Of a stretch of 64,000 bases of DNA, positions 1-27,765 are shown one piece after another. The DNA is from Antedon mediterranea (lineage: Eukaryota > Echinodermata > Crinoidea > Comatulida > Antedonidae). A program made the translations under genes and the position numbers. The notes under the pieces are model-generated. The model saw nothing but the letters and a program-made list of their open reading frames with translations, searched no databases and had not been told where the DNA came from. The first letter of the stretch is position 1. Every line of letters starts with the position of its first letter. The stretch covers positions 34,241,304-34,305,303 of the forward strand of contig NC_092671.1 of NCBI RefSeq assembly GCF_964355755.1. Reading direction: 5' to 3'.

Positions 1-929
1 CGACTCAGAATAACCCTGGAGCTAGGCAGCAAGGATACAATAGGTATCGCGGAAGGGGAGGCAAATTCCATAACTATGGTAGAAAATTTCAACAGAGAGA
101 ACCTTCAAATGAATGGATTAATGGCCTATGCTTTAATTGTAAGGAGAAGGGACATAAAATAGGGGATTGTCCTAAGATGGTAGCAAAAGGAAAGACTAGT
201 GACACTAAGAAGGGCCCGAATGTGAAAGATGGCTTAAGATGTGAAGGACTAAAATCAGATAGACCCCAAGTAGTTATAGATAGTGTAGAAAATAAAATGG
301 AGAAGTGTACAATACCAGGAAAATTAGAAGGACAGGATATAACTATGCTTAGAGACTTGGGATGTACCCAGTCAGCTGTTAAGGAAAGTCTAGTGCCTAA
401 CAAATGTTACTTGCCAGGAAAATGGGTTTCGTTAAGAGGTATAGGAGGCGATATTACCGTCCCCTTAGCTGAGGTAGCTATAGAAAGTAAGATAGTGACA
501 GGAAAAGTGATTGTAGCCGTAATCGAAGGATTACAGAAGGACATGTTATTGGGTCATGATTTGGACCAGAATTGTGGGGAAACAATGGCTAAAGAAATGT
601 TCGTCCTAACTAGGGAGCAAGCCAGAATAGAAAATGATGTTAGAATACAAGACGAAATGATATTGTTAGGGAAAGATAGTAACTTTAAGCTGATAGAAGA
701 GCCGCCTAAAGAAACTAATGTACAATTGTTAAAAACAGTAGTAAATGACAACAAAGTAAATAAAACTAAGTGTTTAGATGATATGAATGGAACAGAAATG
801 AATAATTTGTTTGACGAAAATGAGGATAGAGCTAAAGATAAAACAGTCAAACATAAAACTTATGAACAACAGCACAAGCTGAACCTAACTAAACAAGAAC
901 TGATCAAATTGCAAACTAAGGATGACTAA
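1..929 (+). pseudogene. gag C-terminus and protease of Gmr1-like copy A
   Basis: The frame is open from base 3 and contains the nucleocapsid zinc knuckle CFNCKEKGHKIGDC followed by the aspartic protease region. In copy B the protease triad is DSG; here the middle codon is TTG, giving DLG at 355-363, which should abolish an aspartyl protease. The frame stops at TAA 927-929, where copy B has a TCA serine codon (one C-to-A change), so protease is cut off from integrase. It is a fragment of a single gag-pol reading frame that is about 1539 codons long in copy B. Confidence 0.9.
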
Positions 930-3350
930 CTCAAAGGAGTGTTTGACAGGGTAGTCCCTATAGAAGAAATAGGTCAGCATAGGGTGTGTTTCTTTATGAG
1001 ACAAGGTATATTGATGAGAAATTGGAGTAGTATTAAAGATAAGAATAACCAAGTGGAACAGATTGTATTACCCACTCAGTGTAGACAGGGTGTATTACAC
1101 TTAGGTCATAATGTGCCATTTGCAGGTCACATGGGTGTTGAGAAAACTAAAAGTAGGGTCCTGAACCAATTCTATTGGCCAGGTATATTTAAAGATGTGG
1201 TAGTCTATTGTAAAGTCTGTAAGGAATGCCAAAAGGTAGATAAGGGTAAAAGTAAAAGGAAACATACTTTGATACCATTACCGATTATAAGTACACCATT
1301 TAAACGTATAGCGATAGACATTGTTGGACCCTTATCTAGAACAAGCCGTAATAACAAATATATGCTTACTATAATTGACTATGCTACGAGATATCCGGAT
1401 GCTATCCCGTTACCCAATGTTAGAGCTGAAACAGTAGCCAGGGCTCTAATAGAAGTCTTTACTAGAGTAGGATTACCCGAAGAGATTGTACATGATCAAG
1501 GAACTAATTTCATGTCTTCAATTATGCAATCTATATGTAGTATGTTGGGGATTAATCAATTAAAGACTACAGTGTACCACCCCCAAAGCAATGGGCTTGT
1601 TGAAAGATTTCACGGTACATTGAAAAATATGATAAGGACACTTACAGTTAAGCAAAGAAAAAATTGGGATAACTACATACCCCCGTTTCTGTTTGCATAC
1701 AGAGAAGTTCCTAGTAAAGCGACGGGCCATTCACCTTTTAAATTGCTTTATGGTAGAGAGGTGAGGGGACCCTTGAGTTTACTCAAAAGTAATTGGGTAG
1801 AAGATGAAGAAACATCTACTGATGTTATCAAATACATGTTAGACATAAGAGAAAAAATGGAGGAATTAATGAAAGATGCTAATGTAAACAAACTTGAACA
1901 ACAAGAAATTATGTCCCAAAATTATAACAAGAATGCTATTGATAGAGAATTTGTAGAAGGGGACAAAGTGTTGATATTCCTTCCAGTAGGAAATAGTAAG
2001 TTAGACAGTAAATGGCAAGGCCCCTTCACTGTTACAAAAAAGGTCAATGATGTAAATTATGAAATATACATAGGAGGTAGAAGAAAAGAAAAACAAATTA
2101 TACATGTTAATATGTTAAAGAGATGGTATGATAAAGTAGAAATAAGTAAAGATGGTTATTATGTAGTAACAAATGTTCAGTCGATAGAAGAAGTAGACTT
2201 AAATGAAACCGTCCATGACAATGAGTTAGATAGTGAAATAGACATAGGATTGTCTTATCATCAATCACAAACATGGAGAGATGTTAACGTTAGTAGTAAT
2301 TTAAATGATACACAAACTAAACAATTAACAGAATTGTTAAAGTACCAACAGATTGTATTCTCGGATGTACCAGGTAGAACTCACTTAGTGAAACATGAAA
2401 TTAAGACTAATGGTGAAATGCCTATAAGGCATAGGGCATATAGAACGCCCCAAGCATTAAAGGGTAAATTGAAAGAGGAATTAGATAGTATGTTGGCTAT
2501 GGGTATAATAGAACCTACTGTTAGTGCCTATGCTGCACCTATTATTGCCCTGAAGAAAGGCCAGAATCAAATTAGAATGGTGACAGATTTTAGATCACTA
2601 AATAAGACTACACAATTTGACCCTTATGTTATGCCTCGCATAGACGAAATGTTGGATGAGGTATCATCCGCAATATACATAACTACGTTAGATCTCACTA
2701 AAGGATTTTACCAGGTGCCTCTGGATCCTAAGACCAAAGACAAATCAGCATTTATTACACAATTTGGACAGTATTGTTACTATGTACTTCCATTTGGTAT
2801 GCAAAATAGTTCTAGTACTTTCCAAAGATTATTGGATAAGGTATTACAAGGTACTGAGGGATATGCTAAGGCATATATAGATGACATATGTATTTATAGT
2901 CAAACTTGGAAAGATCATATTTTTCATTTGAATGATGTATTAGAAAGATTAAGTAGTGCTGGATTGACAGCAAAGTCTTTGAAATGTAAAATTGCCTATG
3001 CACAGTTAGAATTTCTGGGGCATAAGATTGGTAATGGAGAAATTAGACCCATAATTGATAAGGTTGAGGCTGTGGAAAAGTTCCCCAGACCTTTTTCTAA
3101 GAAACAAGTCCGATCTTTTCTCGGATTAACGGGCTATTACAGAAAATCTGTACAGAACTATGCCGATATTGCTAAGCCATTGATTGATTTAACTTTAAAG
3201 AGTAAAAGTAATACCGTTAAGTGGAATGAACAATGTGAAAATGCCTTTGTAACTTTAAAGAAACGACTTACTGATGATAATGTATTAAAAGCAAACCAAA
3301 TTTTGATAAGATGTTTATATTGCAAACCGATGCCTCAAATTATGGCATAG
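930..3350 (+). pseudogene. Integrase and reverse transcriptase of Gmr1-like copy A
   Basis: Downstream of the nonsense codon the same frame continues through the H2C2 zinc-binding module (HLGHNVPFAGHMG, later CKVCKEC, with the usual FYWPGIF motif intact), the DDE integrase core (AIDIVGP, HDQGTNF, LVERF), then the gypsy-type RT with the catalytic YIDD box near 2874-2885. Near 3291-3300 the copy carries gcaaacc where copy B has gcccc, a net +2 change that shifts the frame and ends it at 3350. The first Met at 939 is only an internal codon. The product would be non-functional as a polyprotein. Confidence 0.9.
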
Positions 3351-3679
3351 GTGCAGTGCTGAGCCAAATAGATGGTGAGGGTAATGATTATCCCATTGTG
3401 TACTTAAGTAGAAAGTTATCTGTACATGAGCAGAGATATTCTGTGCCAGAAAAAGAGTGCCTCTCTATTGTTTGGGCTATCAATAAACTTAAGTATTATC
3501 TGTATGGTTGTGAATTTCAAGTTCATACTGACCACCAGGCATTGAGATGGATGGACTCAATGAAGGGTGCCAATGTTAGACTTATGAGATGGGCTCTGTT
3601 TTTACAAGGATATAAATTTAAAGTTATTTACAAGAAAGGATCATTAAATGGAAATGCAGATGGATTAAGCCGTGCATAA
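3311..3679 (+). pseudogene. RNase H end of Gmr1-like copy A
   Basis: This is the continuation of pol in the shifted frame. It shows the RNase H start LQTDASNYGIGAVLSQ, the HTDHQALRWM motif and the terminal NADGLSRA that ends many gypsy pol proteins. It matches the last 122 residues of the open frame of copy B. It follows the +2 frameshift and so is no longer joined to the RT. Confidence 0.9.
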
Positions 3680-3769
3680 TAATATTATAGAGGTGTTATT
3701 TGTAGATAGTTTATAGTAAAATGGTTTTAAATGTTAAATTTTTGGAAAGATTGACACAATCTTTTTCCC

Positions 3770-3780
3770 AAAAAGGGGAA
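3770..3780 (+). promoter_or_regulatory. Polypurine tract of Gmr1-like copy A
   Basis: The purine run aaaaaggggaa directly abuts the TGTCATATTA start of the 3' LTR, the expected place for plus-strand priming. The same tract is at 44329-44339 in copy B. Confidence 0.8.
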
Positions 3781-4191
3781 TGTCATATTATTGATGTTGT
3801 GATTCTCTGTGTTTAGATAAGGATGCTTTAGACCAGGTCCGCCTTATATTATTAGCCAATCAAAATTGTATAATTTTTGGAGGGAAAATGTTATCCTCCT
3901 CTGAAGCCTAAAATTTGCATGTCCAGTATAAAAGTGGAATGTAATAGAGATTAGAGAGAAGAGAGAATAAGATCAGAGTAGATAAACGGAAAGATGATAA
4001 AGAAAATATTAAGGCTTGACTGGTAGTGGTAGAAAGATGTATTAATCGAATTACAAGGAATAAAAGTTCTAGTTGAGTTAAATATACTTTTTGTATGAGT
4101 TATCATTCAGTGACAGTGTACGTCGCGTGGAGTTATATATATATATATACGCCTGAGAAAGCTCGGAACCAACTAAGATATATTCACTACA
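3781..4191 (+). repeat. 3' LTR of Gmr1-like copy A (411 bp)
   Basis: It begins TGTCATATTA and ends ATTCACTACA, i.e. TG...CA ends. It is shorter than the 484-bp LTRs of copy B because it holds single copies of two stretches that are duplicated there (a 32-bp unit and a roughly 48-bp unit near the 3' end), and has a short (TA)n run instead. A TATA box (TATAAAAG) lies at 3927-3934. Confidence 0.9.
3927..3934 (+). promoter_or_regulatory. TATA box in LTR of copy A
   Basis: TATAAAAG inside the LTR, conserved at the same place in both LTRs of copy B; it is the likely core promoter of the element. Confidence 0.6.
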
Positions 4192-4474
4192 CTTCTTTAG
4201 TATTTTGAAGAAACACTTCAATATCCAGATAGGCAAAAGAAACAAGAAAAAAATTCAACATTTATATTTTTTACGATTTATTTAGAAAGTGTGTTTACTA
4301 GAAATGTTCGCGCTTTGTGACACTTAAAATATGGTCCTCGGTCAAGTTGTCCTTTAATGCCTCGCTTTTGGAAACATAGATATACCGGTTGAGTATTATA
4401 GGATAAACAAGTACTAAGAAGAATTTACATTATTTATATAAGCTTACTAATAAAACATTAATAATTTGTTACAG

Positions 4475-4495
4475 TAAATGGAGTAGACAGCTAGA
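4475..4495 (+). CDS. Gene 1 micro-exon 1 (21 nt)
   Basis: It is bounded by ttgttacag and gtaagtata. Read with one base completing the previous codon it gives KWSRQL and leaves GA, which the next exon completes to Glu. The other two frames contain stops. Only the frame shared with its neighbours is open. Confidence 0.55.
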
Positions 4496-7400
4496 GTAAG
4501 TATATAAACATAATTATCTGTATATTAATGCCATGCCAAAATGTAAAATGTATTACGTAACAGTGGTAAAATACGTAACAATTCAATTATTTCACGAGCA
4601 CAAAGAATAATAAATGTATTACAAAACAATTGAAAAACAATGAAGTATAATGAAATTTAAATTTAATGGTATTTTATAAAATAATTATGGTCAAGACAGA
4701 CAAAGCATAACAAAATCTAAGTTGCATTTCTACACATCAGAAATTGGGTAGTGAATTCTTTATATTTTTAAAAAAACATGACTACATATAGAATGATCAG
4801 GTTTTAAATAATAATAGAGCAGTATATTGCAGAATTAAGACATTAATATTATGTAAGCTTACTATTAAATCTTAATTATTTTACAGAGAACAGAGAAGAA
4901 AGAGAGAGTAAGTATAAACATACTATTGCTAATGGTTTGCCATGCTAAAACGTGAAATTGATTACGTAAAACTTTAAAATACACTGTATAATGAAATATA
5001 ATTTATGAAGGGGCTTGTATTAGGACCAAGACAAAGTATAACAAAATAAAGATTTCATTTCTTACTACTACTACTGCGTCGAGCTTGCTCGGATTCTTTT
5101 AACTACTTCTTTCCAGCCGTCTCTATTAATCATTGCTCCTGGTAGCTCTTCAATTTTTTGGCCGGAGTCCGCAACTAGTTGGTCAATTAATGATTTTGGG
5201 GGCCTGCCTGGTCTTATTGTCCCATGTGATGGCATCCAGAGCATAAGTTCGCTTATCAGTTCACTTTTGTTGCGGAAAGAGTGTCCAACAAAGCGGACTC
5301 TTCTTTCTTTGATAACATCGGTGATCTTGCGAAGATTCCCATATAGCTGAGCGTTCGAGAGGTGCTCTTGCCACGAAACGTTAAGAACGGCTCGTAGCAT
5401 CCTAGTATATGTTCCGTTTAGAGTGTTTTCAAGTTTCTTAGTTAGGGTCCATGTCGATGACCCGTAGAGAAGGACAGACTCGACTGTGGTCTTAAAGAAA
5501 TTTTTCTTCATGTTGTTTGAGATGTTGGACTTCCATATGACAGTCAGGCGTTTGAGAGCTGACCAGGCTTTGCTGATACGTATATCAACGTCTTTTGCTG
5601 TTGAGGCAATGTTGCTGCCAAGATAGGTGAACTGGTCGACTTGATTGAGAGCGTATCCGGAGCTAGTTTGAATTTGACCTTGACAGTTTACGTTCATACT
5701 TTCTGTCTTTTTGGCATTTATGTTGAGGCCGATTGAGGATGCAGCATTTTCAAGGGCGTGTAGGAGGGTTTTTGCTCCAGCGATCGTGTTCGACAACAGG
5801 GCTATATCGTCAGCATAATCAGCGTCAGTTACCAATGTCGCAGGGAACCTCTTACTGATTCTTGGCTTCAATTTTAAGCCGTGTTTGTTGAGTGGATCAA
5901 TAGCCGAGCGGAGAACATAATCAAGACATATGATGAAGATGTAGGGAGCGAGAGTATATCCTTGAAGGACGCCTGCTTTTACCTGAAACGGATCAGTATC
6001 ACCATCTGGAGAACGAACCAGGGCACTTGAGTTTTTGTACAGCATCATTATGGCATTGACAATCTCAAGTGGAATTTTGTAGACGAGAAGAATTTCACGC
6101 ATCTTTTCACGATGGACAGAATCGAAGGCTTTTGCGAAATCTACAAAGAGGAGGACTGCAGGAAGATTTTTGTCACGCACTCCCTCAAGTATTCTCCTAA
6201 TTGTGAGAATCTGGCTGCTTACTGAGCGTCCCTGTCTAAAACCATCATTTCTTACACCTCCAGGAATTGTGTATAAGCCAACTGTATAAACTAACTTAAT
6301 ATATATTTACAAAAACAATATAGTAACCTACTACTTGTAAAATAATAATAAATCAAATGTTTTCAGCCTAAATGCCTCACTTTCAATCAATCAATAATCA
6401 ACATTTTTATTCCATAATTTAAAAAAACATATACAAATACAATAAAAATGATAGTGGAATGGGATACAAAATAAGCACAAGTGCATTAAACATGTAACCC
6501 TAGCTAACTAGAACAAACACTAGTACCAAAAAAACCTAACTTAAATATTTTTATTGATATAATGTTGCTTCAATCTCTGCTTAAACAAACTTAATGTGGG
6601 GATTGTTTTATATAATATGTTACATTATTCCAAATATGTGTTCTTGATAAGATATACATTGTTTTAGTTGTGGACAATAGTTTGACCTGTTTCTATATTT
6701 GAGTAATTATGGAACGCCTGGCCAAATCATTGATTAAATGATGCTGTTAATAGATTATGTTTATATCTGTGCATCAATATAGCAGCATAGTTGCTAATAA
6801 ATATTAGAGCTGATAATTTAAACAACTATTTTCATACATTATTTATGTCAACATACTATTGCATTTTTTATTTATTTTTTTTACAGAAAAGTGAGACAGG
6901 AAAAGTAAGTAGAATATTGCTTTTACTATCCAATAACATGACCATATAGAATAATCAGGTTTTTTTATAATAATACAGCAGGACATTTTGGGGAGAATTA
7001 TTAAGACATTAATATTTATGTAAGCTAACTATTAAATCTTAATTATTTTAAAGAGAACAGAGAAGACAGAAAGAGTAAGAATAAACATACTATTGCAAAT
7101 GGTTTGCCATGCTAATATGTAAAATGTGTTATGCAACATTTTAAATTACAAGTAGTATAATGAAATATAATTGTCAATTACTGTAGTAAATTGTATCTTT
7201 AAAATAATTTTCAATTTATTTTTGTTTTAAGTTCATGACATATTTTTAAATCATAATAAAGTCAAGGTTTAGTTTAAATGCACCATTATTGAAAAAAATA
7301 ATAAGAAAAAAATATAATAACAGGTAAAGTTTAAAAACATTAAGACAATTTATAATTATGTATGTTTAATATAACGTAATGAATATGAATACTTGTTTAT

Positions 7401-10400
7401 CTTATAGAAAATGGGAAAGACTACGAGAGTAAGTATATTTACACGATATAGTAATTTACCATGTGAAATGTGAAATTTGTTACGAAACACTAATGAAATT
7501 GATAATGTAGAAGACATTAAAAGTATATATGTTTTACTATTAAGACATAAGGTTTAAATAAATCACTAACAAAACTTAATATTTTTTGACAGAGAAACAA
7601 GTAGACTGTTAAAGTAAGTATAAATTATATATTATTTTTAATCTTTTGTCTTTAGACTTTGTGGCCAAGGATTGCCAATAGTAAATTAATCACTGTCCTA
7701 TCAGATAGTTGGTAATCCCCCTGATGCAGGGCTATTTTGTGAACCAGTTCACCGAGGTAACCCCCTTCTCTTCTCGAAAATGAAGTGGGTTCTAATTGGT
7801 AAAAATAATAGGTAAGACATAATTTTTTTAATGCAAAAATCATATAATACGTATAGTAAAATGAATACAATGTAAATGAACATTTTATAATTTAGTTAGA
7901 CACCAGGTGAAAATGCATACACTTAATGGAGAAAGAGTAATTAATGGGAGACACCAACTAAAGAGAAAACAACCGTAGTAGTAGTAGTTCAAAACAAAAG
8001 AAACACACTTTTTCACTTTATTTTTAATAGGGTGAAGTTTTGGTCAGTGACTGATGAACTTTCAAGTGAAATTAAAGTGAATGATTTGCAGATGCTGAAG
8101 GTCGCCCTATATGACATAATCAACAACAAAAAGGAATTAAAAGCAGCGTCAGCTAATAGTTTGTTCAGACTATTACATTCAGAGGGTTACGTTGAAATTA
8201 GTTGGTTTGTGGAAGTTGATTGTGATCTGCTATTTGAATTATTTGAGTTAACAGGACTTCAAAGACTATCTCAAATATTATCCAAGAACTATCGTAAGCA
8301 GAGGCAGACAAATATAATCACAGGCTACAGACGAATGCTAGTTAAACTTGGCAAATCATTAAATACTCAACAAGTTGAAATCCTTGCGAAGCTCTGCAAT
8401 ATTAGAAAAGTTGATTCAAAAAATGCGTGGAATTTAATTAGCAGATTGACTCAAGGCAAAATTGAAGACACTATAGAATCGTTGACGGCATTTGAAGCTC
8501 TTCTGAAAGACAAACAAGATTTGAATCATGTAGGCCTACTTACTATTGTAAAATCATTTGGTAAGTATATCTTTTTTAGCAGCATCGTTCTATTTCAATC
8601 AGAATATCTTACTCTGGGCCAACTTTTAAACGCAAAATGTTCTGGTTTTTTTTTTATGAATGTCTTTAATATAAAAAAACTGAAACAGTCATGATATCAT
8701 AAATGAAATTTTACACAATTCATTTCTAACCTGGCTCTAGTCTTACAATATAATTACAATTGTAATATTTGTTTTGATTTTAGAAAAAAACTATAATACG
8801 CCCAATAATATTTTTTTTTTCAGTGCAACAGAAAAAACTGAATGATGGTAAGAATAGTAACTAAGCAGTAAATGTAATATTCAATATTGATCTAATGAAA
8901 ATAGTGTCTGATATGTTTCTTATATTTTGTAAATCGTTTATTTCGAATTAATAATTATTTATTTTTACACCATGTTCCTTGACTGCATGTTATATTCTCC
9001 TTCACTAAAAGTCATCTTATTCTAGAAACTCTCTGTCTAATATCATACATGTACTGCATATCTAAAAAATCCGAAACCACACACATGTAATTCCTAACCA
9101 AGTAGTGCATGTGTATTTACATAATGTATGTCTTTTAAACATAATAATAGTTCCTCTTGAGGTGTTGGCAAGAAGGCAGGAGGCTAATGATGCATTTCTT
9201 GATGCCATACAAGAAGGAAGTAAATCTATATACCAAACACGTCTAATGCTTGTAGGACAAGAGCGTGTTGGTAAAACCAGTTTAACCAAAGCACTCACTT
9301 GTCAACCGTAAGTAGGCCAAAATCCAGAACAACAAGAACAATAGTTACATTAACAATTATTTTTAATTAATTATAGATTTATTTTAAAACAGAGCCTGCG
9401 TATTTAAGAACAATAGTTACATTAACAATTATTTTTAATTGATTATAGATTTATTTTAAAACAGATATGTTTCTTAAAATAATACATTGAAGGTTCATAG
9501 GAACACCTACGAAATTGGGCAAAGATCATTAACGCTTGATGCATGACCAACCTTCGGGACTAGTACAATGGTAGCAATCTTCCATTTTTTGGCAAATATT
9601 TCCTTTACGTAATGCAGTGTCTCTTAGTAAAATGAGAAGCTAATTCAGTGTAATTTGATTTTTAGTTTATGTTACTCAGTTCATCATTCGTAACAAGTGG
9701 TACATATAAGTGTTGGCTTCATTATAAAAACTAGATGGTACGCTCGCTTCGCTCGCGTACCATCTAGGTCGTGCCCACAGATGGTTCTCGAATACATAAT
9801 AATTTCAGCGTTAAAAAACTGGCAATTTCAAATGTACGTACCGCAGGACAATAATACATGTCGTGTACAGGAACGAATAAATAGACACTGTGATTTATGT
9901 ACTCAACTAAAATTAGCACCCTATTACTTCCAAAAGAGAAACTTGTCACAAAATAAGACCAATTGTTTAAGTCAAATTTAAACAAACTTAATTTGTGTTT
10001 TGTATGTAACATTAGGGTTGAGGGATGGGGAAGAGGATGGGTGCAAAGAGGAACAATGTTAAAATATATTCTTTATCCATTTAGTAACGAAATATTAATT
10101 GCTTTCATGTTTTACAAATAATATACCACTAAACACAGTAAAACATTGCGATGTAATACTTTGTTGAACTATCACCGTCCTAGTCGATTGAAATAGTACA
10201 GCACATGTAACGATACATCACTACGACGTGTATATGTTTATAATATAATGTAAAACAATTTGTGAAAACCACCTCTATTCGGGGAAAATCATAAATTTGA
10301 TTTAATCGTCAATAAATATTAAATTATCTAACTCAACTTAATTAGTAGGCCTAATGGTTTTCAATTGTTTCTTAGAGCCAATTCATACTTAAGTTGGTTC

Positions 10401-13400
10401 CTACCCTACCCACCAAAGTTGTTCTGCGTTTAGGGCATGTGATGTACCGTAGGCCTATTCTCTACTGGTTTTACAACGCTACTCATGCCAGTGAGGGAAA
10501 GGTGATGATGTGGGTGGTTTAACTGCAATAATAAAGATTTGTACATAATATACGGCAAGTGAAAACGCTAGCTCTCATTATCCGTTTAAAAAAAAATTAT
10601 ATCCAACCTCTGCAGCACAGATTGAAAACAAAAATGGATCGAATTTCGAGTATACAGTACTGTACTTGCCTTTACGACGCCTGAGGGAATAGACACTTGT
10701 GAAACAGAGATTGGAATGTTCCATTCATCGCAAATCAATACATTTGTATAATCGTATATTAAATCTATCAAAATAGTATTTTTTAAAGAAAATCGGCCTG
10801 TCTTCAACATTATGATGCTGTACTCTAGCTGTTCAACCAGTTTTCAGCTATTAAAAACCATTATCGTAGGAGGAGATAGGAAAATGCGAAGCCTCCTCGT
10901 ATTATTGTGGCGGGTATTTTTCAAGATGGACATCCATTAGACAGTGTATACCACGATCGGAAAACACCCCTATTTGGGGCAAATCGTTGAACCTAAATTC
11001 GTTTTAATCGTCAATAACTAATTACCTAACTCAATTTAATTAGTAAACAGGGTTACATCAGATGGTTAAAATCAGTACCGAAAGTACGAACCAACTTTAT
11101 ATACCATCGAGTAGAAATTCTAGAAATAAACCGAGATTTACCGAATTTTGCCCTTACGTAAATTTATATATAGATTAAATGATTTAAGTAATAACAATCC
11201 ATCTGATTACACAAAATTAAAAGCTTGTATAAAGGTCACGGAGTTAGACCTAATAGGCCAAATATGTTAACAGCGTGTTCTTTTCCTACACTGTATATTT
11301 TAAATATTTTGAATGACTTTTGTATTGCTTGAAATAATATGTTAAAAGTTTGTGTCATAAAATGTGTTTAAGTTGTGATATGTAGTAGAATGTGTTTCAG
11401 ATATAATACCACTTGTAACATTTATTTAGATTTGATGCTACTGAGGAAGTGACTGATGAAATTGAAGCATCATTGTCATGCACAATTAGTGTTAAGCATA
11501 CTACTAACTGGAAACCAAGTCAAATTAAAGGTATAGTACATTCACATTCAGAAATAAATATCTTAAATTAAAAATTGAAATTCCAAATAAGAAGTACGGA
11601 TATGAATATCCTCATTCATCCAAGTAGTATTAATTTTAGAAAGATATCAATCTAATCATTCAACCTAAGTCGTGAAACACTGTTTACTAAACAAGTAAGT
11701 GTAGTGGATTAAGGAAGTTTCAAAGGGTAATCATTACTGTAGGTAAACAATATTTGTATTTTTTATTTTTTTTATTTAAAAACATATTTATACATACTAA
11801 TGTAAATGTAATGCTTAACTTAATAAAGTAATGAGGTTCGGTTAGGTTTGCAATATGGTCCTGTTCGTATAATAAAAATAAAATAGAAAATGAAAATTAT
11901 AAAAATGAATCTTCTATTCAACTATACTGTAAAACTATAATAGAAAGTTGTATTGTGTTTCAAACCATTGCACCTGAAACACTTAGTGAACTATTCATGA
12001 GCATTCATTTAGTTGTTAAGGAGGATTAATGTTGAGATTTTCCTAAAAGATCCATGTCAAAAACCATTTCAATGTTATTATTTACATGTATATATTTTGT
12101 CCATTTTAACACGCTATAGCATAACCTCTGAGTTTTTTTTTTATAATTTGTTTAAAAATGTGCAGCTTCTGTAACCTCAGTAGTTTCTCAAAACATAATA
12201 CAGAATTGGGTTGTACGTTTATAGAGTAAATTTAAAAACGTTTTCCTGAGTGTCTCAGCTAATTTTGTATTTAATTGGCGTATAATAATGAGCATTCCAG
12301 TTTCACGGATTTGAATTCCTTAACTACTTGATTCATGTCACATGGGCATTCAGAGATACAGAAGAGCGTAAAGTAACTAGGTAACCATTCATAATGACAA
12401 TGTATGCAAAGATTTGCATTGCTTATATTCGCAGCAAAGAATGAAGTACGACAAGAATATATAAGAGCTCTTGCAGAAAAAATCGTAACTGACATTTTGA
12501 AGGATAAACGAGAGAATCAACATGAGGTTAGAACAATGTGATTACGATTATTAAATGTAAACAATGCTTGTATCATTATGTTATCTGTTGTATTTATGCT
12601 AATTATTGTTAAAATATGCCATTGTTTGCAATATTATACAGAAGTTAATGCACCATGGAAATGCAAAACAAGAAAATAAAGAAGTTGGCAGTGTTGCTGA
12701 GCCAGAGGAAGATAATCCAATAACGTATTTAACTTCCTCACATGAAGGTATGAAAACTCGATTAATACAATACCATGTTTTAAAGTCCATCTGGTTACAT
12801 ATATTGAAGAACAAAGAAATAACAACATTTACGATGGTTGGCAGCAACACACAAAACTGTTGGTAGGTAGAATTGCAATACGGATTTTGAATTTTATCCT
12901 TACTGGGAGTCCTTATTATTAATAGTCTGTCTTGTAGTACTTGATTTTATTCTGGTAGGATTGTATTTAAATTATTATTGCATGTTGTTGTTGCTGCTGC
13001 TGTTTGTTTTTTTTTTGCTGTTTTTTGTTATTGTTTTCTTTGGCGTTGTCACTAACCAATTGTAAAGAGTTATAACTATTTTTCCAAATATTATTTCTCA
13101 TTTCTCATACGATATTTATTAAATATTAATTTACAAATAAATTGTTTCAAATAGTTAATAATTTGTGCAGGCATTAAACACATCCATACATAACATTTAA
13201 ATTTCTATTAGAGAGCACAAGTAAAACATTGAAAGAAAGAGTGGTAAGAGCAGTTAGAGAAACATAAAGAAGGATTTTGACAATGAAAAGAAAGAAGGGA
13301 GAACAACATCAGGTCTGTATGCCTTCATTTTTAGTCGCGTGCAACGCGACTCTACAGCTCAATATGTCGGTCGGTTGGTCGGTCGGTCGGTTGGTTGGTC

Positions 13401-16400: not shown

Positions 16401-19400
16401 TTACATTAAACAGCACTTAGTGCATCTTCACAAATGACGCATGATACTCAAGAAGATGTTACTGAACTGGTTGTAGACATGCTTGAAGAAAAGAGAAGAT
16501 CTGCAGAAAAAAACGTGTTGAAAGAGAGTAAAGATTTACAGGAGACAATTGATGATCTGACTCTGAGCATTTGGGATTTTGCTGGACAAGATCTTTATTA
16601 CATTACTCATCAGGTACTATAGTAATAGACCATTTTAATATGTGTTCTTCACATTATTAGACATAATTTTAGATCTAGTTGACAAGAGATAACCATTCTT
16701 ATTACAATAAAGAACTAAAAAACAAACAATATAAATGTAAAGGTTGATATCTATACTATCGTGTAATAACTTATAATATGTAAACAATAATAAGTATTGT
16801 CTGGTCTGGCAATTTAAACATAACAGAATATAAAAACTAAAGGTCGTCGTATACTATGGCTGATTAGCCTAAAGTCGATAATTGACTCAAATGATCAAAC
16901 GTATTCAACTTTTTTTTTAAATGACACAAATTTATCAAAAAGATATCATTATTTGAAAACCATATGAACGCCACTTGGTGTTCAAGTACTATGCCATCGA
17001 TAACAGTGTCAGGTCACCATTGGATAAGTCTATTTTTGAGCTTAGAGATAACATCACAGAGGTAGCTAAGAATGAACCGTATATGGGCGAGAAGATGCCA
17101 TTGAAGTGGTTACATTTCTTGCATGAAATTGAAAAATTACGTGCACAGAATGAGCACTCAGTTACCTTCAAACAGGCAAGTATACTACCTCTGTATATCA
17201 TATCATTCAAATGAAAGATGCATTAACATGTAGAAGAAGAACAACACATTTGGAATTTTCGATTATAAATGCAAAATGCTTTTTTCATCAAAACAAACAT
17301 TAAATAAAAGAATGGTAAATTCAGCACAAAATATATGTCAATTACAGTATATGTGAGTGGTGTACGTTAAAACAGTTCAATATTACATGTATACCGCATA
17401 CATTAATACAAAATCAAAGTGAGAACAGAGAAAGAAAAGACAACAGTAGGTATACCATTTAGGATTGTTGCCAACAATAAAACAATTTAGCTTTTTTCAG
17501 TTCTTTTAATATAACTATTGTAAAGCTTTTTTGTGTCCAAGTGTGATGATTTTTGTATTTTTTTTTCATTTTTCTACTTATTGTTCATATTTATATATTA
17601 CTAATCAATTTTTTTTATCTTATACTTTTGTACTTATTTCATTCTATTGACCTTTTTTTCAAATGTCAGGTAACCAAACTAGCTTCCAAGTGTCATATCA
17701 CTAAACAGGATCAATTGTTTGCTATGTTGCATTTTCATCATGACCTTGGAAACATTGTTTACTACGGAGAACGAGACACACCAGATTGCGCCCTCAATGA
17801 CATTATCATTATAATACCGCAATGGTTGATTTTCATTTTCAAACTAGTTATCACAGTTAAAGATCCTTCAAAACAAGTATGAAATTTAGTTCAATTTTTT
17901 TTTTTCTGTGTTTCAAGTACAGATATTGGTGTGTTGTTTCAGTGCAACATGCATTTGATCATATGTTTTTAGCGTGGTAGTATTTCATTAGTTAACAATT
18001 AAAAATAACTATTTCAAACTAATTGTCAGCATTTTTTGCAGTTAATAGATATATATTTACAGACCATGCCTATTGATTTTTTAAAAAAATTGTATTTATA
18101 TTTTATCAATATCTTGTTATCTTTATTTTCAATATGGTTCAAAATATTAAATAGGACGACCACTGTTATTTTACCAAGTATTTCCCTCAGAAACTGAGCA
18201 CTTAAGTGTATTTTTTTAGTATGCAGAGCTTAGAAGCTCTTGGAGAAAACTTGACGAAGAGGGTCTCCTGGAAGAGAGATTACTTAGACGTATGTGGGAA
18301 GAATTTCTTGAGATATTCGAAGCATTGTTAGAGCTGATGCAGAAATTTGACTTACTATGTGTCAAGACTCCATCTACTCAGGTAAAGACAGGTTGATAGC
18401 AGTTAGTATCAAATTGATGTTTCCGGTTGTTTCTGTATCAATTTACATAATTGTTTGAAATCGCCCAACCAGTATCTGAGCAATATTGTAAACCTTTCGT
18501 TAGTCTCCTCATAGTTAATTTTAACAAAAATTAATTTCATTATTTGAAATTGTTACAAAAGATAACAAGTGTTGAAGGCAATCGTCTCTTTTATGTGCCA
18601 TCACTGCTGAAGAAGGATGAAGGTGACGAAATGGTATCACTTGATAAACTGACAAAGTCAATGAATACTGCGGTATTTTACGTTGACTTTGATGGTTTCC
18701 TACCTGAAGGACTGTACTATCGACTCGTAGTAAGAATCGTGCATTGGTCACAACAGAGGTCACATGATGAGAGATATGATCCTAGACTCTTTTACCAGCA
18801 GGTGAAAGTATACATTGATCTAAATCATGATGCAATCATCAGGATCCTACCTGAAAGAAGATCTTGTATTCAGGTAGGCTAGGAGTGTTTGCAGCAAGTG
18901 TATTACAAGTATGCCCTTAAAATCCTAAAGGTCAAATTTTCAATACTAAGTCCAAGAATTATCTTTCCATAATCATGACATTTGTTTGATAAAACAACTT
19001 TCATTCTGAGGCACAATTGTTTTGTTAACCAAAAAAAGTTCCCATATAAGTATTAAACATGAAAAATGAAAATTAATAAATCAGACTTTGAATACCTCTT
19101 GTTTTAATCAAGTTAATCACTTCCATAGAAATTTAAAAACACCAGAAAATTAATGTTTCAGTTATAAAAAGATACATTAAACGGTTAAATCAAACCAAAA
19201 ACCCACTGTCTGGCAGACAATTTGACTATTTGTTGTTTTAAACTACAGTTAAAATAATTTGTTTTAGGGCCAATTTTTTGACAAAATGAAAAAATATTAC
19301 GTGTCATTAAAATGGCTTATTCAACAAAAAAAATTAAACAAAATTTTCAGGGAACAATTTATTATTATTATTATTAGTGTTATTATTATTATTATTTATT

Positions 19401-21114
19401 TTTAATTTAAATGTTTAAACAAATCCTGAATATAAAATTGTTATTACAATCAAGTAAATTTGTTTTTATTCTATTACACTGTAGGTGGTTATTTACAGAC
19501 TTAAAGTTGACGATGATAAAGAGCTTGAACCATCACCGCGTGTATGCAAAGAGGTGAGTGATGAATGTTGTATTCCAACTTCTTCAATATGGTGAGAGAG
19601 TATCTATATATAAATTATGGTTAATTCCATAGGCGAGCCCAGTGGAAAAGCTTCGGGACAAATCTCCGCCTTGGATACCCACCTTATCTATCTCAGATGT
19701 ACCGCAAAACGTAGATTTGATAACATTAGTTCACTATTACGATATTGTCCATTTCTATCTTAGGAAGATATTATAAAGAGTTTTATAACAAACTTTATTA
19801 TTTCATCGGTAGATTTTTAACTCTACGCGCGGTAGAAGTCATTTCCTGGTTCACGGTAAGGTGTAAACTTCGGTTTAATACCTTTAGTAGAGCCTCTTTT
19901 TTTGATTTAGGTATCATTAACACATGGAACTCATTACCCTTTCACATTGTTTCAAGCCCAACACTTAACACTTTCAAGCAAAAATATGACACACACATGA
20001 GCAGTATGAGAGGAGGCAGCCTCTACGAGTAAATACAGTTTGACATTATCCCGAAAGAAACTTCCCAGATTACACGCATATTGGTCTTGTGACGCATTAG
20101 TGATAAATTAAATGTATCCTGATGTTATGGCTAGGTTATACAAAAAATGCATGCTGTGACAGGCACAGCAGATCTCAAGCCATGTTTAAGTACATAAATA
20201 GAATCGAGTAAAATGAATTAAGTAGTGACCAAAAATGTGTTACTGATTATAGATGATACAGCTTCTCAAGAAAAACTTAAAGGACATTTGCCAAAAATGG
20301 ATAAAACATGTTGCTTTTAACTTCTGTGTTCTATCCACCAATCGTTTGGAGAAGGTCCTCTTGCACAACCTTGATGACTGCCTAAAGTCAACTGGATGTC
20401 GACATCATGATCGAATGGATAATTCCAAAATTAGGCGTTTGTTTGGAGAGGAAATTTCAGGTACTGCTTAAAATCACTCTTAAAACAAAAATATTTTAAA
20501 ATACCTGTAGGGCAAAACGCCATCCGGAAAATATCCATGACTTTCTATTACATGTCGAGGCTAAATACAGAATTAAACGTCCAAGTTAAAGTATAGTATC
20601 TTTTTTTTTAAACGTTTAAGCAGCAATCTTTTAAACTTTTTACCTTTAAATCAATTATGATGGGGCTGCAGTCATAAATTATGTCAAGGGTTAAAACAAT
20701 CTCATAAATAGAATAAAAAGCTTGGTTTTATAACAGGAAACATTTCTTTTAGTCTGCCAAGCCACTGATGCTCAAGAAACCTCAAAAGTTCCAGGATTTC
20801 TGCGATATCTCATTGGCGTCTATAAAGACATCCCGTCACCATTCCTGCCATTTGAAATCATGACAGAGGTTTGTGTTCTCCTTGATCCTCCACACCCACG
20901 GGCTAATGACTGGCGTAGTGTAGCATGTAAGGTTGGCTATGATCATTATATCAACTACTTGATGGACATGATGAAAAGTCCTACTATGGCTGTAATGCAT
21001 GGATGTTATGAGAAAGGTTGGTCATTGGAAGACTTCGAAAAGTGTATGATTGACATACAACGTCATGATGTTGCAAGTTTGATCAATGAATATCTTTCTA
21101 CTAAAGAGGAATGA
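4475..21114 (+). CDS. Gene 1: DED-Roc-COR-death domain protein (multi-exon, possibly decayed)
   Basis: A split gene whose exons join in consistent phase: micro-exons 4475-7613, then 8031-8560, 8824-8847, 9151-9307, 11430-11530, 12435-12526, 12642-12747, 13212-13243, 14502-14547, 16414-16613, about 16957-17175, 17670-17876, 18220-18381, 18562-18873, 19485-19553, 20253-20460 and 20753-21114. The predicted order is a charged helical N-terminus, one or two death-effector folds, Roc GTPase (P-loop GQERVGKTSL, G3 DFAGQ), COR and a death domain. Known relatives with Roc-COR plus death folds (DAPK1, MFHAS1-like Roco proteins) act in death and inflammatory signalling; that role is inferred here. The start codon is not seen, probably lying left of the window. 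Two Roc exons kept by gene 2 (G4 region) are missing between 16613 and 16957, and the exon ending at 17175 has no clear acceptor, so this copy may be a young pseudogene. Confidence 0.8.
4887..4907 (+). CDS. Gene 1 micro-exon 2 (21 nt)
   Basis: Bounded by ttattttacag and gtaagtata; encodes EQRRKR between split codons. It is near-identical to micro-exon 4 (EQRRQK), and the intron sequence around both is repeated too, so the exon-intron unit was duplicated. Confidence 0.65.
5066..6244 (-). mobile_element. 5'-truncated non-LTR retrotransposon with 11-bp target duplication
   Basis: The 1179-bp insertion is flanked by direct copies of tcatttcttac at 5055-5065 and 6245-6255. It holds the C-terminal part of a LINE protein. 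The minus-strand 3' end carries a short (GTA)n run in which the stop codon falls. The flanking DNA rejoins as the intron repeat seen near 63000 (tttcatt...cctcaagaattgtgtat), so the element jumped into one intron-repeat unit of gene 1. Confidence 0.88.
5071..6244 (-). pseudogene. Reverse transcriptase C-terminal half, RTE-like LINE
   Basis: The frame is open from the truncation point. It starts at the RT motif GFRQGRS, continues through FVDFAKAFDSVHR, AGVLQGYTLAPYIF and the catalytic box DADYADDIALLS, then the long C-terminal region typical of RTE-like elements (TYTRMLRAVLNVSWQEHLSN, RRVRFVGHSFR). Length is about 390 residues; the endonuclease and N-terminal RT are lost to 5' truncation during insertion. 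There are no internal stops, so the insertion is fairly young. The clade is inferred from motif style only. Confidence 0.8.
6887..6904 (+). CDS. Gene 1 micro-exon 3 (18 nt)
   Basis: Bounded by ttttttttacag and gtaagtaga; encodes KVRQE plus split codons in the same phase-2 frame as its neighbours. Confidence 0.55.
7054..7074 (+). CDS. Gene 1 micro-exon 4 (21 nt)
   Basis: Encodes EQRRQK. The acceptor reads ttttaaag rather than ttttacag, so it may be weak or disabled; the donor is gtaagaata. Sequence and flanks closely match micro-exon 2. Confidence 0.5.
7408..7428 (+). CDS. Gene 1 micro-exon 5 (21 nt)
   Basis: Bounded by tttatcttatag and gtaagtata; encodes KWERLR plus split codons, continuing the charged segment. 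Confidence 0.6.
7593..7613 (+). CDS. Gene 1 micro-exon 6 (21 nt)
   Basis: Bounded by ttttttgacag and gtaagtata; encodes ETSRLL and leaves AA, which the first base of the 8031 exon completes to Lys (AAG). It is the last micro-exon before the death-effector exon. Confidence 0.6.
7614..8030 (+). other. Intron of gene 1 with an unidentified sequence patch
   Basis: Contains a block at about 7655-7800 that does not resemble the intron repeat. Its minus strand is open for 72 codons but has no recognisable domain; it may be a transposon scrap. No exon is supported here. Confidence 0.3.
8031..8560 (+). CDS. Gene 1 exon: death-effector-like domain(s)
   Basis: A 530-nt exon between tttttaatag and gtaagtat, phase 2 in and phase 1 out, open throughout. 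The first half (FWSVTDELSSEIKVNDLQML, NSLFRLLHSEGYVE, LLFELFELTGLQRL) has the six-helix spacing of a death-effector domain. The second half (GYRRMLVKLGKSLN, VEILAKLCNIRK, LTAFEALLKDKQDLN, LLTIVKSFG) looks like a second, more divergent one, as in proteins with tandem DEDs. The domain call rests on hydrophobic pattern, so CARD or a related death fold is possible. Gene 2 has the matching exon at 27251-27765. Confidence 0.75.
8824..8847 (+). CDS. Gene 1 linker exon (24 nt)
   Basis: Bounded by a long T run plus cag and gtaagaata; phase 1 both sides; encodes VQQKKLND. The same exon exists in gene 2 at 27918-27941 with nearly the same residues, which confirms it as real. Confidence 0.75.
9151..9307 (+). 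CDS. Gene 1 exon: start of Roc GTPase domain with P-loop
   Basis: It encodes VPLEVLARRQEANDAFLDAI, then TRLMLVGQERVGKTSLTKAL. GQERVGKTS is a Walker A/G1 nucleotide-binding loop, preceded by the hydrophobic beta strand usual in Roc domains of Roco proteins. The donor is gtaagtagg after the second base of a codon. In gene 2 the matching exon is cut off just before this loop. Confidence 0.85.
9334..9466 (+). repeat. Tandem duplication in intron (period 72 bp)
   Basis: The segment starting aagaacaatagttacattaa occurs twice, at 9334 and 9406, nearly identical for about 60 bp. It has no coding meaning. Confidence 0.85.
9480..9640 (-). mobile_element. LINE reverse transcriptase remnant
   Basis: The minus strand translates to EIFAKKWKIATIVLVPKVGH followed by NDLCPIS and a stop, the conserved RT block that reads WK.A.v.P..K.G....N.RPIS in LINEs. 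It is a short, decayed intronic fragment. Confidence 0.65.
9721..11170. repeat. Dispersed repeat, longer copy
   Basis: It shares long stretches with 14680-15315: the ctagatggtac hairpin end, a block around gtaacattagggttgaggga, and a block around gtataccacgatcggaaaac. A near-perfect short inverted repeat (ctagatggtac...gtaccatctag) sits at 9731-9767. Class unknown; no coding capacity seen. Confidence 0.6.
11430..11530 (+). CDS. Gene 1 exon inside the Roc insertion
   Basis: Bounded by acatttatttag and gtatagta; phase 2 in, phase 1 out; encodes PFDATEEVTDEIEAS and ISVKHTTNWKPSQIK. It sits between the G1 and G3 exons and probably holds the switch I region. No counterpart was found in gene 2. 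Confidence 0.65.
12435..12526 (+). CDS. Gene 1 exon inside the Roc insertion (charged)
   Basis: Bounded by cttatattcgcag and gttagaac; phase 1 in, phase 0 out; encodes AKNEVRQEYIRALAEKIVTD and a Lys/Arg-rich end. Helical and charged; no named domain. Confidence 0.6.
12642..12747 (+). CDS. Gene 1 exon inside the Roc insertion (acidic)
   Basis: Bounded by atattatacag and gtatgaaa; phase 0 in, phase 1 out; encodes KLMHHGNAKQENKEVGSVAE and EEDNPITYLTSSHE. It looks like a disordered loop. Confidence 0.55.
13212..13243 (+). CDS. Gene 1 small exon (32 nt) in Roc insertion
   Basis: Bounded by atttctattag and gtaagagc; phase 1 in, phase 0 out, encoding ESTSKTLKERV. Gene 2 has an exon with the same phases at 28255-28310 but other sequence. 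Confidence 0.45.
13334..14040. repeat. Non-autonomous TTA-flanked element, copy 1 (right end decayed)
   Basis: It begins after tta with GTCGCGTGCAACGCGAC and a (GGTC/GGTT)n run, then shares most of its length with 38509-39232. The right inverted end is not recognisable here. Confidence 0.6.
14502..14547 (+). CDS. Gene 1 small exon (46 nt) in Roc insertion
   Basis: Bounded by ttgttatacag and gtaaggtg; phase 0 in, phase 1 out; encodes KSREIVRKKQEDDKF. Gene 2 has the homologous exon at 28622-28661 (KFGRKKREYEEEF) with the same phases. Confidence 0.7.
14680..15315. repeat. Dispersed repeat, shorter copy
   Basis: It parallels 9721-11170, starting at ctagatggtacacgag and ending near the acgtaaattta block; the middle third of the longer copy is missing. 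Confidence 0.6.
15318..15520. repeat. Fold-back element (long hairpin)
   Basis: The arms 15361-15413 and 15428-15481 are nearly perfect reverse complements around a short loop (gaagcgccagctga). The pairing extends outward with mismatches (aggttaaatata / atatatttaacc; atacagatattg / caatatctgt). Each arm carries tatatattccc-type and gatttgacatcccc motifs. It would form a cruciform or RNA hairpin and resembles a small fold-back MITE in the intron before the G3 exon. Confidence 0.85.
15965..16035 (+). repeat. tRNA-like SINE head
   Basis: TGGCGCAGCGG resembles a pol III A box and AAGTTCAAGATCGAG a B box at tRNA-like spacing. No CCA-ready acceptor stem can be drawn, so a SINE head is more likely than a tRNA gene. 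Confidence 0.5.
16073..16195 (+). repeat. Tandem duplication (period about 74 bp)
   Basis: The block aattacacagtcaatatcat with following ctcgag occurs twice directly after the SINE-like head; probably the body of that repeat. Confidence 0.7.
16414..16613 (+). CDS. Gene 1 exon: Roc domain G3 motif
   Basis: Bounded by cattaaacag and gtactata; phase 1 in, phase 0 out. It ends with the switch II region LTLSIWDFAGQDLYYITHQ; DFAGQ is the G3/Walker B motif in the form common to Roco proteins (DFAGQxxYY.TH). Its upstream half is a charged stretch with VTELVVDMLEEKRRS. Gene 2 carries an almost identical end at 29293-29474. Confidence 0.85.
16957..17175 (+). CDS. Gene 1 exon: Roc-COR junction, with GC splice donor
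   Basis: The frame encodes KPYERHLVFKYYAIDNSV, then FELRDNITEVAKNEPYMGEK and MPLKWLHFLHEIEKLRA, the conserved entry into COR. A TGA lies directly upstream at 16954-16956 and no convincing acceptor is visible; an AG at 16985-16986 would keep the frame but shorten the domain. The donor is AAACAG|GCAAGTAT, a GC donor shared with gene 2. Confidence 0.6.
17670..17876 (+). CDS. Gene 1 exon: COR domain, first part
   Basis: Exactly 69 codons, phase 0 both sides (aaatgtcag / gtatgaaa). The motifs VTKLASKCHITKQDQLFAML, FHHDLGNIVYYGE and IPQWLIFIFKLVITVKD match the COR pattern of Roco proteins (the dimerisation and GTPase-coupling region). No homologous exon remains in gene 2. Confidence 0.85.
18220..18381 (+). 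CDS. Gene 1 exon: COR domain, second part
   Basis: 54 codons, phase 0 both sides. It encodes YAELRSSWRKLDEEGLLEER, RRMWEEFLE and ALLELMQKFDLLCVK; the W-x-x-L...G-x-L...LW-x-x-F...LMxKFDL pattern is typical of COR. In gene 2 this exon is fused by deletion to the next. Confidence 0.88.
18562..18873 (+). CDS. Gene 1 exon: COR domain, C-terminal half
   Basis: 104 codons, phase 0 both sides (ttacaaaag / gtaggcta). It encodes RLFYVPSLL, VFYVDFDGFLPEGLYYRLVV and RIVHWSQQR, the well-conserved FxGFLPxGLxxRL segment of COR. The acceptor has a weak pyrimidine tract. Confidence 0.87.
19485..19553 (+). CDS. Gene 1 exon after COR core (69 nt)
   Basis: 23 codons, phase 0 both sides (cactgtag / gtgagtga), encoding VVIYRLKVDDDKELEPSPRV. 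Gene 2 keeps a broken version at about 32308-32371. Confidence 0.75.
19625..20060 (+). mobile_element. LINE 3' fragment (CR1-like C-terminus)
   Basis: It encodes FNTFSRASFFDLGIINTWNS with LPFHIVSSPTLNTFKQKYD, the C-terminal tail found in CR1/Jockey-group LINE proteins. It lies in the intron between two COR-distal exons of gene 1 and has no RT core left. Confidence 0.65.
20253..20460 (+). CDS. Gene 1 exon: COR-to-death-domain linker
   Basis: Phase 0 in, phase 1 out (tgattatag / gtactgct). It encodes ICQKWIKHVAFNFCVLSTNR, LHNLDDCLKS and RRLFGEEISG, with spaced Cys/His residues. The gene 2 version at 32548-32759 keeps WMKRVVFNVCALCNVCHMER. Confidence 0.75.
20753..21114 (+). CDS. Gene 1 last exon: death domain and stop
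   Basis: Bounded on the left by catttcttttag, 121 codons with the split one, ending at TGA 21112-21114. The motifs MTEVCVLLDPP, NDWRSVACKVGYDHYINYL, SPTMAVMHGCYEKGWSLEDF and IQRHDVASLINEYL follow the six-helix death domain pattern (W in helix 2, R.D in helix 5/6). It should mediate homotypic contact with other death-fold proteins. Gene 2 has an intact homologue at 33182-33552. Confidence 0.88.
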
Positions 21115-24587: not shown

Positions 24588-24649
24588 ATGGCATTTAATT
24601 TTGAAACCGAGGCAGAAGGCAGCAGGAAGAAAGAAAAGAAGAAAAAACG
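24588..24649 (+). CDS. Gene 2 first coding exon
   Basis: ATG opens MAFNFETEAEGSRKKEKKKK, then CG of a split Arg codon before gtaattatg. Gene 3 starts the same way (MASNFENPEE and AG before gtaatac), so the start and the phase-2 donor are supported by comparison. The segment is strongly basic. Confidence 0.7.
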
Positions 24650-25470: not shown

Positions 25471-25497
25471 AGTTTCTACCTCAATCCCAGAATTGGA
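25471..25497 (+). CDS. Gene 2 micro-exon 1 (27 nt)
   Basis: Bounded by atttttacag and gtaagtatg; encodes VSTSIPEL plus split codons in phase with the first exon. Confidence 0.6.
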
Positions 25498-25954
25498 GTA
25501 AGTATGCTGTAACTATACTTAATGCCTTTATATCAAAGTAAAACTTACGTTTATACCATGTAGGATCATGAACGATTAATCTTTTGTTGGAAATTTCAAA
25601 CTGAATGGTTCTTTGACAGAAATAAACTGATAAGCAGTTAATTTTATCACATTTATTTTCACACCAGTAATAGTTATTACTTTAAAAAATACTAAATGCA
25701 AGCATTTCATTGTTTTGACATTGTTAAATTTTTAGTATAATATAAGAAACGTTTCTATCGTTATTAAAAGGTACGAAATACAATAATAAAAAATACATAG
25801 AACACATGTTATAGAATACAAGAAAAAATAAAGTAATAATATGATGAGTAAAAATTATTGTGAATATAATTATAATGAAATGTAAACAATTCAGAATTAT
25901 TTATACATTATATCTATGTAAACATTACTGATGAAAGTTAAATCTTTTTTACAG

Positions 25955-25978
25955 AGAATGGAGAAGCCAAGAACTAGA
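25955..25978 (+). CDS. Gene 2 micro-exon 2 (24 nt)
   Basis: Bounded by cttttttacag and gtaaatat; encodes EWRSQEL plus split codons. Confidence 0.6.
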
Positions 25979-26398: not shown

Positions 26399-26419
26399 AA
26401 AAGAGGGAAAATTTAAAAA
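26399..26419 (+). CDS. Gene 2 micro-exon 3 (21 nt)
   Basis: Bounded by atctttacag and gtaagtat; encodes KEGKFK plus split codons. Confidence 0.6.
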
Positions 26420-26716: not shown

Positions 26717-26740
26717 ACTACAAAGAAAAATCTCTGAGAG
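26717..26740 (+). CDS. Gene 2 micro-exon 4 (24 nt)
   Basis: Bounded by atttttatag and gtaagtaa; encodes LQRKISE plus split codons. Confidence 0.6.
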
Positions 26741-27056: not shown

Positions 27057-27071
27057 GGAACAGAGAAGAGG
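27057..27071 (+). CDS. Gene 2 micro-exon 5 (15 nt)
   Basis: Bounded by tttgttttag and gtaagtaa; encodes EQRR plus split codons, the same peptide core as micro-exons 2 and 4 of gene 1. It joins in frame to the 27251 exon. Confidence 0.6.
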
Positions 27072-27250: not shown

Positions 27251-27765
27251 GGATGAGTTTTGGTCGGTGATTGATAACATTTCAAGTGAAATTGCAGTTT
27301 ATGATCTATAGATGCTGAAGGTCGCCCTCTATGACATAATAAAAAACAAAGATGAATTAGATGCAGCATCAGCTAATGCTTTGTTCAGACTATTACATTC
27401 AGAAGGTTACATTGAAATTGGTTATGTTGTTAACTGTGATCTATTATTTGAAGTATTTGATGTAACAGGACTTCAAATACTACTTAAAATGCTCTCCAAG
27501 AAATATCACAGACGGAATCAGGCAAACAAAATCACAGGCTACAGACGGATGCTAGTTAAACTCGACAGATCATTGAATAGTCAACAGGTGGACATTCTTG
27601 CAAAACTCTTCAAGATTGAAAGGAATCCGAACAATTCTTGGAATTTAATTAAGAGATTGACTCAAGGAAATATTGAAAACACTATAGCATCATTGAAGAA
27701 TGTTGAAACACTTGTGAAGGACAAACAAGAATTGAATCATGTACTTACTATAGTAAGATCATTTG
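27251..27765 (+). pseudogene. Gene 2 death-effector exon with nonsense codon
   Basis: Homologous to 8031-8560 over its full length with the same phases. TAG at 27309-27311 replaces the CAG of gene 1 (CTATAGATG versus TTGCAGATG). Beyond it the frame is open: LKVALYDIIKNKDELDAASA, GYRRMLVKLDRSLNSQQVDI. Reinitiation at the ATG that follows the stop is possible in principle. Confidence 0.8.

Follow-up and report, generated by a model that had tools for sequence, protein, structure and literature searches.

The DNA described here, called the window, is a stretch of 64,000 nucleotides (nt) from the crinoid Antedon mediterranea (NCBI RefSeq assembly GCF_964355755.1, contig NC_092671.1, positions 34,241,304 to 34,305,303) and contains two Roco genes, gene 1 and gene 2, on its + strand. 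The 5' part of gene 1 carries an array of six micro-exons at 4475-7613, all of them (6/6) bounded by an AG acceptor and a GTAAG donor and followed by the exon for a tandem death effector domain (DED) at 8031..8560. They comprise exon 1 (4475..4495, 21 nt, KWSRQL(E)), delineated from its sequence and splice sites, exon 2 (4887..4907, 21 nt, EQRRKR(E)), exon 3 (6887..6904, 18 nt, KVRQE(K)), exon 4 (7054..7074, 21 nt, EQRRQK(E)), exon 5 (7408..7428, 21 nt, KWERLR(E)) and exon 6 (7593..7613, 21 nt, ETSRLL(K)). Every one of the six has a length divisible by three (3n) and begins and ends in phase 2 (phase 2/2). Stop codons occur in frame 0 in exons 1 and 6 and in frame 2 in exons 1, 3 and 6, and the shared frame is free of them in all six. 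Joined, the exons encode KWSRQLE-EQRRKRE-KVRQEK-EQRRQKE-KWERLRE-ETSRLLK, which continues in frame into VKFWSVTDELSS of the exon at 8031. The first-pass annotation had placed six in-phase micro-exons of 18-21 nt at 4475..7613, with the common frame as the sole open one and running into the death effector exon, and its coordinates, lengths, phases and reading frame were all borne out.

The second Roco gene (24588-33552) lies about 20 kb downstream of gene 1 and has five micro-exon candidates of its own, of 15-27 nt; taking a micro-exon as at most 30 nt between AG and GT, all six segments of gene 1 and all five candidates of gene 2 qualify. A putative first coding exon (24588..24649, MAFNFETEAEGSRKKEKKKK(R)), which would end in phase 2, is in no model seen. 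Candidate 1 (25471..25497, 27 nt) is the weakest, with a purine content of 44% and flanks unlike those of any other unit; candidate 2 (25955..25978, 24 nt) has a GTAAAT donor and was hence missed by the pair scan described below; candidate 3 spans 26399..26419 (21 nt). Exons 4 (26717..26740, 24 nt, LQRKISE) and 5 (27057..27071, 15 nt, EQRR) have equivalents in the annotated protein P0004. The tandem DED exon of gene 2 follows at 27251..27765 and is interrupted by an in-frame TAG. No convincing copy of the gene-2 first exon was found upstream of gene 1 within the window; sequence of a long terminal repeat (LTR) element (LTR matches at 3781-4191) fills the side upstream of the gene-1 array, so that the true first exon of gene 1 probably lies outside the window.

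The intron flanks of the micro-exon units are alike, so that units similar to one another including their flanking intron are present, as in a tandemly duplicated array, and the origin by duplication that had been proposed for the segments is thereby supported. Between gene 1 and gene 2 the similarity of flanks is confined to the upstream side, acceptor tract included, a point against the interpretation favoured below. Exon 4 sits in a stretch that repeats the exon 2 unit (4772-5003 / 6932-7172, 84% over 244 columns). A tree of the 11 units has a single node with a support of at least 0.9 (exons 2 and 4, 0.914), the remainder lying between 0.31 and 0.80.

Use of the exons was read from annotated protein models at NCBI alone. 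Protein searches covered candidates of about 540-1716, 124-393 and 209-665 amino acids (aa), given as cluster representatives, for which further isoforms are possible. The search with the conceptual gene-1 protein scored the 7994 candidates sharing most words with it, and the top matches among these were proteins of Antedon mediterranea (Crinoidea). The first 276 residues of P0066 (351 aa) correspond to 4778-4800, exons 2, 3 and 6, 8031-8529, 14502-14547 and 16414-16613, and its residues 272-351 align by tblastn to 16972-17211, 75/80 being identical across the junction. P0066 thus splices exon 3 straight to exon 6 (6904-7593), leaving out exons 4 and 5. Its first exon (4778..4800, + strand, MTTYRMIR) falls inside the repeat 4772-5003 / 6932-7172 and is probably an artificial start within an intron. 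P0001, a close copy of gene 1 (98% over the DED exon), begins with MNMNTCLSYR-KWERLRE-ETSRLLK-VKFW, equivalent to exons 5 and 6; its first 17 residues are identical to the translation of window positions 7379-7429, which begins at an intronic ATG and runs through exon 5, with exon 6 following. Gene 2 has its closest relative in P0004 (91% over the DED exon), which begins with MKLHFYR-LQRKISE-TEQRRG-DEFW, that is, with exons 4 and 5 of the gene-2 type preceded by residues that are intronic in the window. The start of P0003, MDATNRFQNQEQERWLEERRRWTDAEFW, could represent two further seven-residue units, judged from the protein alone. Exons as short as these are rarely predicted without transcripts.

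The junctions listed in the first-pass annotation are accordingly represented in part, 4907-6887 and 7613-8031 being used by P0066 and an equivalent of 7428-7593 by P0001, with 4495-4887, 6904-7054 and 7074-7408 in no model seen. Its proposal that linkers of variable length are made by alternative splicing is partly supported, in that the models contain different combinations (2+3+6 in P0066, 5+6 in P0001), these two models being derived from different gene copies. The paralogous array of gene 2, the tandem nature of the DED and the damage to the Roc domain of gene 1 had escaped it.

By their reading frame the arrays tolerate skipping. All 64/64 subsets of the gene-1 micro-exons and all 32/32 subsets of those of gene 2 (translated as far as 27308, ahead of the TAG) are open, as had been anticipated for symmetric exons that can be skipped without loss of frame. 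This follows from the construction of the units: because they are 3n in length, are in phase 2/2 and end in GA, AA or AG (10/11) or GG (1/11), the junction codons are never stops. The micro-exons are also distinctive in composition, with a purine content of 77% vs 52% in their flanks and 55% in the large exons, and with GA-type tetramers at 12.8 vs 0.9 per 100 nt. Motifs rich in GA belong to the classic exonic splicing enhancers. The share of E/K/R/Q residues is 76% in the gene-1 micro-exons, 57% in those of gene 2 and 26% in the DED exon; the charged composition may in part be a by-product of how exons this small are defined. An AlphaFold model of P0066 has a helix at its start, with predicted local distance difference test (pLDDT) values of 78 (residues 1-10) and 75 (residues 11-20) within a model that is poor as a whole (mean pLDDT 43).

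The interpretation that we favour, and to which we give somewhat better than even credence, is that these are tandemly duplicated, skip-tolerant, purine-rich micro-exon cassettes encoding a charged, probably helical stalk ahead of the tandem DED, in the manner of troponin T. Each unit in the 5' part of these crinoid Roco genes has, as the sequence shows, its own acceptor, an exon of 15-27 nt and its own donor, in phase 2/2. Inclusion would probably be set by the GA-rich exonic enhancers together with splice-site strength, and the skipping of exons with weak acceptors would yield N-termini of differing length. The product would be a charged N-terminal stalk with about 5-9 residues per exon, probably helical and running straight into the caspase-8-like tandem DED, after which, judging from the models of relatives, Roc-COR would follow in the more complete family members and a Death domain in some. 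A stalk of variable length and charge might then determine how DED assemblies are spaced or nucleated. The exon array itself is solid, its use as an alternative-splicing device is held with moderate confidence and its function is speculative. An extended version strikes us as doubtful; in it, crinoid tandem-DED Roco genes would have a combinatorial array of up to 64 N-termini, the exons included would fix how long and how charged a helical stalk on the caspase-8-like domain is, splicing would thereby tune the assembly of innate-immune or cell-death filaments, and damaged copies such as gene 1 would persist as short c-FLIP-like regulators made of stalk plus tandem DED.

A number of observations weigh against the favoured interpretation and are set out here with the alternatives on which they bear, beginning with splice-site strength. 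Matrices were built from 20 acceptors and 18 donors called by hand in the window, the acceptor sites being taken from exons other than the micro-exons, and cut-offs were placed at the 10th percentile. These cut-offs are passed by exons 3 and 6 only in gene 1 (2/6) and by 3/5 exons in gene 2. The donors of exons 1, 2, 4 and 5 score 3.6 vs a training minimum of 5.95 and are without the final exonic G. The acceptors of exon 4 (AAAG) and exon 5 are under the cut-off and are the weakest of the six (3.9 and 4.6), those of exons 2, 3 and 6, used by P0066, scoring 7.1, 12.9 and 9.7 and that of exon 1, which lies upstream of the P0066 start, scoring 6.7. Weak sites fit alternative exons, but they are equally a caution. 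Moreover, when the letters were shuffled within each gene-1 exon, all six remained open in 11.8% of trials.

Such figures raise the question of chance, that is, of splice-like motifs in AT-rich intron sequence, and 5/6 gene-1 exons do have either a donor that the window matrix rates as weak or an alternative, shifted acceptor found by the scan. A pair scan was carried out with GTAAGT, GTAAGA and GTGAGT donors, an acceptor matrix score of at least 3.5 bits and a spacing of 9-36 nt. It returned 11 acceptor-donor pairs in 4441-8030, namely the six micro-exons and five shifted acceptors of exons 2, 3 and 4, whereas 300 Markov shuffles gave 1.06 pairs on average and 6 at most; counting just the pairs that were both 3n and open in the shared frame, the shuffles had a mean of 0.21 and a maximum of 3. 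The + strand outside the array (57,809 nt) contained 19 pairs, of which 5 were both 3n and open, and the - strand of the whole window 8 pairs, of which 1 was both; four of the five gene-2 candidates were picked up along with one shifted acceptor. Chance was rejected as an explanation on the basis of the shuffles, the similarity of the flanks between units and the presence of exons 2, 3 and 6 in the annotated P0066, matched letter for letter over 276 residues, and we consider it extremely improbable; P0066 contradicts it unless that model is altogether without support.

A more serious alternative is that the micro-exons are constitutive and merely lengthen a charged N-terminus, the differences between models reflecting incomplete annotation or splicing noise. 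All three models that bear micro-exons have their starts (MTTYRMIR, MNMNTCLSYR and MKLHFYR) in what the window shows as intron, as truncated models would, and are thus incomplete or artificial at this end; P0001 and P0066 come from different copies, and their difference does not have to stem from alternative splicing within a single gene. Two further points weigh against the favoured interpretation: none of the models seen among the cluster representatives contains exon 1 or exon 4, and the model of the relative P0002 is without such a stalk. Against a constitutive array stands the junction of exon 3 to exon 6 in P0066, by which precisely the two exons with the weakest acceptors, 4 and 5, are omitted. 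We regard the constitutive alternative as possible, though clearly less probable than the skip-tolerant cassettes proposed above.

The remaining alternative concerns the condition of the two genes and is best considered together with their domains. The exon at 8031..8560 on the + strand, which P0066 ends at 8529, encodes a tandem DED with the fold of caspase-8. Its PF01335 scores are under the gathering score of 35.9 (23.5 bits for the window exon, 18.4 for P0066), whereas P0067, a relative in Anneissia japonica, reaches 45.9 bits; searching the PDB with the sequence of this exon gave nothing useful, with one row at E 0.91. Further downstream gene 1 has, all on the + strand, a Roc P-loop (G1) exon at 9151..9307, which is absent from P0066, a Roc G3 exon at 16414..16613 (DFAGQDLYYITHQ), after which the expected following Roc exons are missing, and a C-terminal Death domain exon at 20753..21114 (PF00531, 28 bits, cut-off 22.6). 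The Death domain of gene 2 scores 24.5 bits against the same cut-off. Roc-COR was identified in the relatives P0001-P0004 (PF08477, 55-58 bits, cut-off 27; PF16095, 53-59 bits, cut-off 35.3), in which Pfam detected no LRR and no caspase domain; no relative was found among viral contigs. The 518-residue model of P0067 contains two similar DED-like units and then a Roc P-loop, a DED-Roc fusion in another crinoid.

Both copies in the window are damaged. Gene 1 retains the Death exon and pieces of COR as well as the micro-exons, the tandem DED and the exons for the P-loop and G3. Of the stretch between G3 and COR, which in P0001 has 123 residues, it holds only 10 (about 113 are missing), so that a complete Roc was not found in it: there is a gap in Roc at 16613-16957, and the next exon is without its 5' part. 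In addition, the gene-1 exon at 13212-13315 contains an in-frame TAA and is open in the close copy P0001. The Roco part of gene 1 is decaying, and its annotated product is a truncated protein of micro-exons and tandem DED. Gene 2 is disabled by the TAG in its DED exon and by the loss of G1 and COR pieces: three parts of P0004, namely G1, COR-A and the COR piece after it, have no match in gene 2 at E <=1. It may therefore be asked whether the array is a relic, formed by functionless exon duplications that drift in a pseudogene. Besides the damage to both copies, retroelements within and ahead of the array and the free divergence of unit sequences would agree with this: the sequence of the unit is not conserved, 2/21 bases being different between exons 2 and 4, both of them replacements. 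Yet both genes have an array ahead of them, and peptides from micro-exons are present in P0001 and P0004, two models in which Roc and COR-A still score above the Pfam cut-offs; the array is therefore older than the decay. Ratios of nonsynonymous to synonymous substitution (dN/dS) between gene 1 and gene 2 were calculated on four of five segments after removal of stop codons and gapped codons, the COR segment, for which no gene-2 partner was entered, being left out, and amounted to 0.49 for the tandem DED, 0.21 for the start of the P-loop exon, 0.46 for the G3 exon and 0.57 for the Death domain, values that fit earlier constraint followed by recent decay. All 11 micro-exons of the two genes are still open in the shared frame, a statistic biased by the choice of the gene-2 exons by eye, partly for being 3n and open. 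In view of these results we consider a mere relic unlikely.

Two related LTR retroelements occupy 1-4191, directly upstream of the array, and 43845-50075, and are 98.5% identical across about 4 kb; the second looks young, its LTRs being 99.6% identical and its open frame extending over 1562 residues. A reverse transcriptase fragment (RVT_1, 84 bits) lies on the - strand at 5071-6306, within the intron that separates micro-exons 2 and 3. A 978-residue open frame on the - strand at 40256-43192 resembles, by eye, a non-LTR retroelement protein, and a direct repeat of about 960 bp (55984-56941 / 62929-63858) has 90% identity.

The tandemly duplicated, skip-tolerant cassettes were compared with known systems. 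The variable N-terminus of avian fast troponin T contains a tandem series of seven pentapeptides, encoded by seven P exons (PMC11016001, PMC7581897). These P exons (the Tx segment), with a length of about 15 nt deduced from the pentapeptide, are the nearest working analogue; mammalian fast troponin T, with its alternative exons 4-8, is also among the closest known systems. As expected of combinatorial cassette exons of the troponin-T type, the frame is kept in every inclusion pattern of the Antedon arrays. Troponin T is, however, a muscle thin-filament protein in which splicing is established, whereas the Antedon units are known from sequence and models, are rich in E/K/R/Q and lie ahead of a tandem DED. 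Schistosome micro-exon genes (MEGs) have many short exons, mostly multiples of three and alternatively spliced (PMC10526429). Their products are secreted proteins, and their very short exons number 10 to 20, whereas in Antedon the array is confined to the 5' end, ahead of larger domain exons. The Antedon gene does not consist mainly of very short exons, since the array is followed by an exon of 530 nt and others of 46-362 nt, plus one of 24 and one of 32 nt. Brown-algal ROCO genes possess arrays of shuffled 72-bp phase-2 leucine-rich repeat (LRR) exons with splice variants and positively selected sites (PMC11378527). The Roc-COR family and arrays of phase-2 exons are shared with Antedon, the algal exons being of 72 bp and encoding one LRR each, and the Antedon exons being of 15-27 nt and encoding a stalk. 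The DED of Antedon has about 15-20% identity to the tandem DEDs of caspase-8 and c-FLIP, and unlike them it is fused to Roc-COR in relatives and has a charged N-terminal stalk. Among the literature matches listed, which lay mostly outside subscription papers, none described a micro-exon array that precedes a DED or belongs to an animal Roco gene. The earlier statement that such a device had not been described for Roco or death-domain genes thus stands among these matches for animal Roco genes and for arrays preceding a DED, and needs qualification for Roco genes in general, given the exon arrays of brown-algal ROCO (PMC11378527).

For the crinoid Roco family, the models that start in what is intron in the window suggest that annotated N-termini are incomplete. 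If the favoured interpretation is true, a micro-exon array would serve a death-fold signalling protein instead of a muscle protein or a secreted parasite protein, and there would be a testable tie between exon number, stalk length and DED assembly. The GA-rich sequence used for defining tiny exons may alone yield charged helical linkers.

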